A DNA stretch of 34,533 nucleotides from a virus: the IMG/VR virus record IMGVR_UViG_3300025127_000121, positions 1-34,533 of that record; one strand, written 5' to 3'. Position numbers and translations under genes: made by a program. Positions within the stretch are counted from its first letter, which is position 1, and each line of letters begins with the position of its first letter. The notes under the pieces were generated by a model, which saw only the letters and a list, made by a program, of their open reading frames with translations, searched no databases and was not told the origin of the DNA. Below, one piece after another: positions 4,231 through 5,219 of this stretch.

Positions 4231-4347
4231 TTACTTACCTCCTACTGAGTAAGCATGTCCACGGTAAGTTAATGTTTTTGCCTGTGGATCTTTTTTATCC
4301 TTAGTGCCAGTTTGATACTTAACACCACGATATGTGACTTGTGCCAT
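4231..4347 (-). CDS. DUF4278-like small protein, 38 aa
   Basis: MAQVTYRGVKYQTG opens with the TYRGVKY signature that I recall from the cyanobacterial DUF4278 family, and a second TYRGHAY motif lies near the C-terminus, so the protein is an internal repeat of a short beta element. AGGAG lies 8 nt before ATG 4347. It follows the 3' half of split riboswitch-like element B and may be under its control. The biochemical role of the family is unknown to me. Confidence 0.75.
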   Translation of the reverse strand: MAQVTYRGVKYQTGTKDKKDPQAKTLTYRGHAYSVGGK

Positions 4348-4381
4348 TTGGTTTTCTCCTAAAGTAATTGGATGATTAATC

Positions 4382-4573
4382 CGTTCCTTCAGTCGGCTTT
4401 TGCGTCCTTACAATTTAATCCTTGAGTTTTGCCAAAGTCATAATATAAATCTATCACTTCTTGTCTATGTGCTTCAGTAATCTCTGGGTAATTCTCTGCA
4501 CGAGACACCATATCATTAATGTCTGCACATGTTATAGAAGTAGCAATTAAAATAGGAATCATAAGGATGAACG
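4382..4573 (-). promoter_or_regulatory. Split glutamine-riboswitch-like element B, enclosing a gene
   Basis: The 5' half is CGTTCATCCTTATG (4573-4560) and the 3' half is TAAGGACGCAAAAGCCGACT plus GAAGGAACG (4410-4382), both on the minus strand. CGTTC pairs with GAACG (P1, 5 bp), and TCCTTA with TAAGGA (P2, 6 bp). The order CGTTCA-P2-GACGcAA...GAAGGAACG matches what I remember of the glnA and Downstream-peptide RNAs (glutamine aptamers). Unusually, P2 is closed not by a short loop but by the whole 57-aa gene. Whether it binds ligand is inference. Confidence 0.45.
4389..4562 (-). CDS. 57-aa protein inside riboswitch-like element B
   Basis: MIPILIATSITCADINDMVS begins with a short hydrophobic stretch ending at a Cys, which could be a signal sequence or lipobox-like start (TSITC); the rest is helical and acidic and ends NCKDAKAD. 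The final codons form the 3' half of the riboswitch-like element, and its TGA sits in GACTGAAGG. The start ATG 4562 directly follows CGTTCATCCTT and lacks a Shine-Dalgarno. The C-terminal Cys may pair with the N-terminal one in the periplasm. Family unknown to me. Confidence 0.65.
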   Translation of the reverse strand: MIPILIATSITCADINDMVSRAENYPEITEAHRQEVIDLYYDFGKTQGLNCKDAKAD

Positions 4574-4576
4574 TTC

Positions 4577-4812
4577 CGTTCCGAGTCGGCTTACTTGCGT
4601 CCTATGAAATAGTATAGGGTTTGCAGTTTTTATCTTCCACCTTGGTAAGAAAGTAATCTATAAGATACTCCTTAGCATCGGGTATATGATTAGGATCACT
4701 TAAGATCTCTACCCGATTGTTGTTCCACTCTTGACATGTCATTGTCCAATGGGCAGGAACATGTTGTGTGAGTAATGAAGATAGCAGTGCAACTTCTAAC
4801 ATAGGATGAACG
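4577..4812 (-). promoter_or_regulatory. Split glutamine-riboswitch-like element A, enclosing a gene
   Basis: The 5' half is CGTTCATCCTATG (4812-4800), the 3' half is CATAGGACGCAAGTAAG followed by CCGACTCGGAACG (4605-4577), on the minus strand. CGTTC/GAACG forms P1 and TCCTATG/CATAGGA a 7-bp P2 that would bury the start codon. The internal GACGCAAGTAAG is very close to the GACGGAAGTAGG core I recall for glutamine riboswitches, and CCG-ACT-CGG could form a short third stem. The enclosed loop is the whole 66-aa gene. It abuts element B with a 3-nt gap. Confidence 0.5.
4602..4802 (-). CDS. 66-aa exported-looking protein inside element A
   Basis: MLEVALLSSLLTQHVPAHW is a short hydrophobic N-terminus that may be a signal peptide; the body has TMTCQEWNNNRVEI, an acidic helix and a second Cys close to the end (KNCKPYTIS). 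The two-Cys layout (one after the leader, one at the C-terminus) is like that of the 57-aa protein next door, so the two may be distant paralogues. ATG 4802 has no Shine-Dalgarno and lies in the predicted P2 helix. A CATAAATA late-promoter variant is 38 nt upstream. Confidence 0.6.
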   Translation of the reverse strand: MLEVALLSSLLTQHVPAHWTMTCQEWNNNRVEILSDPNHIPDAKEYLIDYFLTKVEDKNCKPYTIS

Positions 4813-4900: not shown

Positions 4901-5088
4901 AAAAAGAGGGAGGTCGGATTCCTGTGTACCGACAAATAACGGGCATTACTACAGTAGTAAAAACGTTATTGCCTGAGACCCGATTGGTCGATCGGTTCTG
5001 CATCGCTGCAGCAGCACCACCTGTGTCTCATCACCTTAACTAGCGGTTGCCAGTAAGTTTATTCAGTCACTCCCATGTTGCGTCCAAC
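4901..5088 (-). ncRNA. Candidate structured phage RNA
   Basis: About 190 nt with little coding capacity follow a consensus sigma-70 promoter. Helices on the minus strand: TGAGAC/GTCTCA (5030-5025 with 4979-4974) closing a junction with hairpin CTGCA-GCGA-TGCAG (5011-4998, GNRA loop) and hairpin CCGAT/ATCGG (4995-4980); then a nested pair AATAACG/CGTTATT (4970-4964 with 4941-4935) enclosing TTACTA/TAGTAA (4960-4946); then GTCGG/CCGAC (4933-4913) and a short CTTTTTC run. The first 20 nt overlap the end of the 50-aa gene. Class unknown; manA or wcaG phage motifs or a regulatory RNA are possible. Exact ends are inferred. Confidence 0.45.
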
Positions 5089-5219
5089 TCTTTTATAATA
5101 GCAGGGTCTTCGCATTCTGTCAACCCCTTATGAAAATTAATATGTAATGCCTCGATGAAGACGAGAGACCCTACGATAATTAGATTACATACGGTCAGAG
5201 GATGGGTAAGATATTTCAC
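5067..5219 (-). CDS. 50-aa membrane protein
   Basis: GTG 5219 shares a base with the TAG of the gene before it (TAGTG). MKYLTHPLTVCNLIIVGSLV continues as FIEALHINFHKG, so residues 8-26 are a membrane helix, followed by a soluble, acidic tail ending KELDATWE. There is no separate ribosome site, so translation is probably coupled. A promoter for the downstream RNA is embedded in its second half (5095-5123). No family known to me. Confidence 0.65.
   Translation of the reverse strand: MKYLTHPLTVCNLIIVGSLVFIEALHINFHKGLTECEDPAIIKELDATWE
5095..5123 (-). promoter_or_regulatory. Strong sigma-70 promoter before the structured RNA
   Basis: On the minus strand, TTGACA (5123-5118), a 17-bp spacer and TATTAT (5100-5095). 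It sits in the coding region of the 50-aa gene. The next recognised start codon is almost 300 nt away (4802), so its first product is the structured stretch 5088-4901. Confidence 0.78.

Follow-up and report, generated by a model that had tools for sequence, protein, structure and literature searches.

The locus treated here raises the question of why two adjacent short genes of a cyanophage should lie between the same riboswitch-like ends. The window, i.e., the whole stretch of 34,533 nucleotides that was analysed, represents part of a T4-like cyanophage genome; its near relative is Prochlorococcus phage P-SSM4, with 97% identity over the region. On its minus strand follow, in this order, a manA RNA, the two elements A and B, and a DUF4278-like gene; element A encloses an ORF of 66 codons (T4-GC 429 in P-SSM4) and element B one of 57 codons (T4-GC 430). 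An earlier note on this DNA had taken element B for a second copy of a split element that closes on its own two ends, and the pair for an array of gene cassettes sharing a regulatory bracket. The strings quoted there, CGTTCATCCTTATG, TAAGGACGCAAAAGCCGACT and GAAGGAACG, were confirmed at 4573-4382 of the minus strand, as was the 57-codon ORF at 4562-4389 (-), which ends in CKDAKAD and a UGA stop. That the C-terminus and the stop of this gene are encoded by aptamer sequence was confirmed as well, and the flanks are indeed riboswitch-like, being parts of a glutamine-I aptamer. The manA RNA (RF01745, 187.9 bits; window 4903-5089 (-)) precedes the nested glutamine riboswitch described below by about 90 nt, so that the window holds two different cis-regulatory RNAs in tandem order.

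On comparative evidence, elements A and B are the halves of one nested RNA and not two copies. This RNA is probably (at a rough probability of 0.7, a joint figure that includes the proposed regulation by glutamine) a cyanophage variant of the glutamine-I (glnA, RF01739) riboswitch, in which the loops of both P2-type hairpins would act as slots in which small genes reside. Support is good for the structure and for the nested genes; the ligand and the regulation we infer, and glutamine would be the ligand of the cyanophage RNA. Relatives were gathered from IMG/VR by two patterns, the A-B junction and the core CGCAAGTAAGTCGC with the stems left free, which gave 178 parsed loci, 167 of them complete. 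The parts of the nested RNA in window coordinates are as follows.

4808-4812 (-): P1 5' strand C1, CGTTC; pairs with 4382-4386; CGTTT/AAACG covariation in L125 and L149.
4800-4806 (-): P2a 5' strand TCCTATG, holding the start codon of the first nested gene; pairs with 4600-4606; covaries in relatives.
4602-4802 (-): first nested gene, 66 aa, phrog_6471, T4-GC 429, in the P2a loop; annotated in P-SSM4, dN/dS, AF2.
4600-4606 (-): P2a 3' strand CATAGGA, holding the UAG stop of the first nested gene.
4592-4599 (-): core strand CGCAAGUA, J2/3 with loop-E strand AGUA; matches C21-A28 of the 5DDP construct (PMC5393176); 23-60 covariation.
4597 (-): base equivalent to position 23 of the crystallised aptamer.
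4584-4591 (-): P3 5' strand AGCCGACU; covaries with 4391-4398 in relatives.
4577-4581 (-): P4 5' strand G1, GAACG; CAACG/CGTTG covariation with 4569-4573, 11/11.
4569-4573 (-): P4 3' strand C2, CGTTC, the start of element B.
4557-4567 (-): P2b 5' strand TCCTTATGATT, holding the start codon of the second nested gene; pairs with 4405-4415.
4389-4562 (-): second nested gene, 57 aa, phrog_504, T4-GC 430, in the P2b loop; C-terminus KDAKAD and UGA from aptamer sequence.
4405-4415 (-): P2b 3' strand AATTGTAAGGA.
4399-4404 (-): inner junction strand CGCAAA, counterpart of CGCAAGUA without GU.
4391-4398 (-): P3 3' strand AGCCGACU.
4387-4390 (-): J3/1 strand GAAG, second strand of loop E; shares bases with the UGA stop and with the candidate anti-SD CUGAAG (4387-4392).
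4382-4386 (-): P1 3' strand G2, GAACG.
4381 (-): base G equivalent to position 60.
4356-4364 (-): CUUUAGGAG, candidate partner of CUGAAG, with the Shine-Dalgarno sequence AGGAG of the downstream gene; association of J3/1 base and pre-SD base.
4231-4347 (-): DUF4278-like gene downstream, 38 aa, on which the switch probably acts; PF14105 E 2.7e-5; phrog_5049.

The repeated segments of the locus occur in the order C1 (CGTTC), G1 (GAACG), C2 (CGTTC) and G2 (GAACG). In the nested RNA, judged from covariation, C1 and G2 form P1, C2 and G1 form the hairpin P4, and the tails of both halves form P3. Where G1 reads CAACG, C2 reads CGTTG (11/11 loci), with C1 unchanged there or CGTTT, and where C1 reads CGTTT, G2 reads AAACG (2/2 loci, L125 and L149, on which the covariation of P1 is based). 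Because the members of CAACG/CGTTG and of CGTTT/AAACG change together, C2 is paired with G1 and C1 with G2; there is no pairing between the CGTTC and the GAACG of element B, and the idea of a self-closing second copy had to be given up. In the set found with the free-stem core, CGTTG accompanies 13 of 13 CAACG copies and not a single GAACG copy, and the changes in P4 are seen with four different hairpin loops. The P3 strands covary across the halves (AGUCG/CGACU, AUUCG/CGAAU, AGUCA/UGACU and GGACGACG/CGCCGCCC), and P3 therefore joins the two halves; the P3 type of the window is AGCCGACU/AGCCGACU with two C-A mismatches. Folded singly by MFE, empty copies give ambiguous results, often with other helices, and comparative evidence was used in place of such folds. 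When tested on the relatives, the nested fold had 782 of 782 cells paired, the counted cells being sequences and not independent events, with a two-sided change at 12 of the 23 pairs, a result matched by none of 500 shuffles; in slid controls, pairing drops to ~30-50%. One locus (L155, minus strand) carries an insert of ~70 nt in the hairpin loop of P4, which is thus a third enlargeable loop.

The obvious competitor is a pair of independent glutamine aptamers in tandem, each closing on itself by C1/G1 or C2/G2 and each with a gene in its P2 loop. It is suggested by the double occurrence of CGTTC and GAACG, through which either half can be drawn as an aptamer, by second halves that in some cases score alone in Rfam (36.7 bits in L005), and by the fact that tandem glutamine riboswitches are a known arrangement (PMC9481103). 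However, this fold breaks exactly at the discriminating pairs: C1/G1 and C2/G2 are broken at every CAACG/CGTTG locus, whereas C1/G2 and G1/C2 are paired throughout. The loop-E strands AGUA and GAAG are moreover divided, one per half, P3 covaries across the halves, and RNAalifold, given 34 gene-excised sequences, returned the nested fold unprompted and did not return the tandem one. Two separate aptamers are therefore most improbable; from the covariation, tandem pairing is refuted as the conserved fold and could survive only as a transient folding intermediate. Nor is the array of gene cassettes supported; in its place stands one nested riboswitch with two gene slots.

The assignment of this nested RNA to the glutamine-I class draws on several lines of comparison. 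Empty nested copies pass the cut-off of RF01739 (43.6 bits in L027, 40.3 in L084 and 41.1 in isolate ACG-2014f), the matches reading the second junction as an insert of P3. The window copy, with P2 loops of ~140 and ~190 nt, has no RF01739 score, and Rfam reported only the nearby manA RNA there; it is silent on the glutamine riboswitch because of the two gene inserts. The P1/P2/P3 three-way junction of glutamine-I was found both in the pair counts and in the unprompted RNAalifold structure, and the core CGNAAGUA together with GAAGGAACG (loop E) is present in the window and in the parsed relatives, some of which have AAAG for GAAG. Comparison shows the outer three-way junction (P1, P2a, P3) to carry the glutamine-I core, and P3 to extend into a second three-way junction (P3, P4, P2b), in which most of this core recurs in circularly permuted form. 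The inner junction repeats P1 (as P4), P2 and CGCA and shares P3; the loop-E bases GU and GAA are missing from it. In the glutamine-bound crystal form (5DDP), position 23 is, as we take it, paired with position 60. Among the 167 phage loci, these two positions are C-G in 160, G-C in six and C-A in one; selection therefore appears to act on the glutamine-I core, this bound-state tertiary pair included. The crystallised construct has the core CGGAAGUA, numbered 21-28, with the base after P1 as 60; critical long-range contacts of the bound state are ascribed to its G22 and G23 (PMC5393176). Most phage copies have C23/G60, as against G23/C60 in the crystallised RNA, which counts against the preferred assignment. 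Glutamine-II (RF01704) was considered and rejected as the identity of the RNA; its best match reaches 32.8 bits against a cut-off of 33, and the same copy scores higher for RF01739.

The earlier note had further held that P2 of element B (UCCUUA/UAAGGA) still pairs and is kept by compensatory change. Both points were borne out: the helix comprises 11 pairs in the window, two of them G-U, and all four junction-side pairs of P2b are present in 74 of 74 distinct gene-filled relatives, with both-sided changes at every pair, the strands pairing across 114-199 nt, far beyond chance. Counted over all distinct rows, the four positions are paired in 92/92. As the parser demanded pairing of P2a and not of P2b, the result for P2b is the unbiased one. 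Loop lengths are bimodal, i.e., 2-41 or 178-220 nt in P2a and 2-13 or 114-199 nt in P2b; each hairpin is either empty or filled by an ORF, 49-75 codons long (61-75 in P2a, mostly 49-69 in P2b), whose start lies within the P2 5' strand. An ATG is found at nt 3-5 of that strand in nearly every long loop, and the stops fall at a few fixed places. Occupancy of P2a/P2b over the 167 loci is empty/filled in 107, filled/filled in 36, empty/empty in 20 and filled/empty in four, proportions that depend on the search patterns by which the sample was set. Clean gain or loss of a gene is seen in near-isogenic pairs, L022/L066 (flanks 96% and 99% identical) differing in P2a occupancy and L016/L085 (flanks 92.5% and 94.5% identical) in P2b occupancy.

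With the last six codons excluded, median dN/dS is 0.14 for P2a ORFs and 0.19 for P2b ORFs, and pN is below pS in more than 99% of nested-ORF pairs; by this measure, the nested ORFs are genes under purifying selection. The C-terminus of the P2b protein (DAND, DAKAD), and often the stop, is dictated by the aptamer, the UGA or UAA coinciding with the variable base of loop E. In three loci (L068, L137, L192), the nested P2b gene ends in another frame, reads through loop E and P1 (...STEGTG...) and stops past the aptamer. As to the proteins, phrog_504 occurs in P2b, phrog_6471 in P2a and phrog_13397 in both slots (P2a in L018, P2b in the others), in line with the earlier expectation that the same bracket hosts different small-protein families. 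These families are unassigned in function, and Pfam gave nothing useful for the nested proteins. Profile comparison links them with 98%, 95% and 91% probability for three alignment pairs and 65% for A1-A2. AlphaFold, run on alignments of the window and the scan loci only, predicts that each of the two window proteins has a hydrophobic N-terminus followed by a helical hairpin (pLDDT 82.5 and 84.2), with a cysteine where helix 1 begins and another behind helix 2; on these models, the nested proteins would be small disulphide-stapled hairpins, possibly exported. Because of the profile links and the similar predicted hairpins, the slots are taken to be filled mostly by one diversified kind of protein and not by random genes.

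It may be asked whether the nested genes have any part in the switch. Aptamer P2 loops usually tolerate changes of length, close relatives gain or lose the gene with the remainder unchanged, and the pairing of the start codons is often short, all of which would suit a real riboswitch with passenger genes, whose P2 loops accept any insert and whose position means nothing for the regulation of the genes inside. Such a reading is unlikely, though not negligible: nearly all filled loops have the start codon at a fixed place at the P2 base, the stops fall at a few fixed places, and related two-cysteine proteins recur in both slots, quite unlike random passengers. Far less credible is a gene-cassette or recombination site, in which the shared ends would serve the exchange of small genes at the DNA level and the likeness to an RNA would be incidental. 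Clean exchange of genes within the slots and the occurrence of both empty and filled forms speak for it, but the full RNA fold, its compensatory changes and the swap at 23-60 are all retained in empty forms, the P2 strands differ between loci and thus offer no fixed exchange sequence, and no growth of an array is seen.

Under the preferred reading, a glutamine-I variant with two gene slots, the likely target of the switch is the DUF4278-like gene downstream, which scores 24.9 bits against DUF4278 (PF14105; cut-off 25.3, E 2.7e-5). Most relatives have a TTGAC...TATAAT-like promoter whose end immediately precedes P1, and the aptamer would therefore start the transcript; the window copy is without this promoter. 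In IMG/VR loci (e.g., L004, L005, L027), a -10-like box lies within a near-perfect dyad (GTGTTAGTATTAACAC, GGTATGCTAACATACC, GGTCTATAATAGACC) ~30 nt upstream of P1. Dyad arms of at least 6 are found in 100/165 loci, compared with ~9 expected from shuffles, and the window retains at this site just a dyad (GTAGCAGTTGCTAC) that has no -10 box; the dyad is a possible operator. The Shine-Dalgarno sequence AGGAG of the downstream gene follows P1 by ~20-25 nt, and the bases over it (CUUCAGG or CUUUAGG) could pair with J3/1 (CUGAAG or CUAAAG) by complementarity. In the 112 motif-bearing loci, the J3/1 base A goes with U in 45, G with C in 27, G with U in 40 and A with C in none; another 47 loci are without the simple CUU[CU](A)GG motif. 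The association of the J3/1 and pre-SD bases suggests that the downstream gene is switched ON at the level of translation, although it may come in part from shared ancestry. This proposed direction agrees with the reported ON function of glutamine-II (PMC6698751) and with the decrease of both glutamine classes upon nitrogen depletion (PMC2864571). Between riboswitch and downstream SD, 14 loci (L015, L025, L064, L071, L075, L090, L106, L141, L146, L147, L149, L183, L314 (Sf-FS3) and L321 (Bellamy)) have an extra conserved stem-loop, ACGGATC[variable stem, often GNRA loop]AGAAGGT, at a constant place that immediately follows P1; its stem varies in sequence yet pairs, and Rfam gave no match to it in L321.

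Regulation might then proceed as follows. Bound glutamine would lock P1, P2a and loop E (AGUA/GAAG); in the locked fold, the CUGAAG of J3/1 would be unable to pair with CUUUAGG, leaving the SD of the DUF4278-like gene open (ON). At the same time, the nested start codons would be held in P2a and P2b and the leader in P4 (OFF). At low glutamine, or as long as the 3' half is not yet transcribed, the nested genes would be translated, and their ribosomes would prevent the aptamer from folding, the last ribosome covering P3, loop E and P1. The fold would thus shut the nested genes, and nested translation would unfold the aptamer. At least one base of the start codon is paired in 143 of 149 P2b genes and 35 of 41 P2a genes; the codon is fully paired in 42/149 and 22/41, respectively, including both window genes, and beyond P2 position five, pairing does not clearly exceed that of shuffled partners. 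On these figures, the hiding of the start codons may be weak. We regard it as a tentative idea, with the odds somewhat against it, that fold and nested genes compete, such that inner ribosomes would unfold the sensor and open the downstream gene, glutamine would fold the sensor and shut the nested genes, inner and outer outputs would be opposite, and the mirrored junctions sharing P3 may bind two glutamines cooperatively.

The bracket proved to be widespread in cyanophages, which supports the earlier note. BLAST with an empty nested copy retrieved 436 phage records, essentially all of them cyanophages (named Synechococcus, Prochlorococcus, cyanophage or marine virus), and a sample spread over the ranking consists mostly of two pieces ~210-250 nt apart over a hypothetical gene, i.e., of filled copies. 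No real copy was found in 386 cyanobacterial genomes, whose two matches (a Crocosphaera site, L326) are both due to chance; a pattern scan of bacterial genome contigs gave mostly chance matches across unrelated bacteria (the three that were inspected, L203, L235 and L271, being without the core), and the pattern GACGCAAANNNGACTGAAGG gave only two matches, one of them by chance. Judged by these records, the nested-gene arrangement appears to be common in ocean cyanophages. One phage contig with an empty nested copy also encodes a PhotoRC-II RNA (L027:1021-1116). In the parts of the publications available to us, a glnA RNA is reported in cyanophage S-CREM1, where the match spans 99 nt (PMC9964418), about as long as an empty nested copy, and glutamine riboswitches are reported in marine phages (PMC9004378); both are presented there as ordinary, with no nested genes or second junction mentioned in those parts. 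A literature search of incomplete coverage gave no genes inside riboswitches and no description of the present arrangement.

If the preferred reading holds, gene-filled aptamers are the usual condition in a virus group that is large and of central ecological importance, and the nested switch would tie phage gene expression to the glutamine of the host, the nitrogen signal. We know of no other riboswitch aptamer with protein-coding genes in its loops. Rfam misses the filled copies and annotation shows only hypothetical genes, so that each sees half of the encoded content; phrog_504, phrog_6471 and phrog_13397 would gain a regulatory context and a testable mechanism. The occupied, empty and near-isogenic forms allow one to study how a structured RNA can take up a gene and keep its fold.

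A folded RNA with a protein gene in a peripheral loop is familiar from the ORF-containing group I introns. In contrast to these, the phage RNA does not splice, its genes do not encode a homing endonuclease, and the host RNA is a ligand-sensing aptamer. With glutamine-I (RF01739, 5DDP), it has in common P1 (CGUUC/GAACG), P2, the CG(G/C)AAGUA core and GAAG loop-E strands and the 23-60 pair; it differs in that P3 runs into a mirrored second junction and the P2 loops hold genes. The likeness to glutamine-II (Downstream-peptide, RF01704) consists in common short motifs and weak sub-threshold matches. That RNA precedes small ORFs in cyanobacteria (PMC2864571), but it is a pseudoknot fold with the peptide gene downstream, whereas the phage genes sit inside. 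Tandem glutamine riboswitches, of which 157 doublets and 4 triplets are listed (PMC9481103), resemble the phage RNA in having two aptamer-like units in a row; the phage units, however, interlock by sharing P3, and some of the listed doublets might be nested like the phage RNA.
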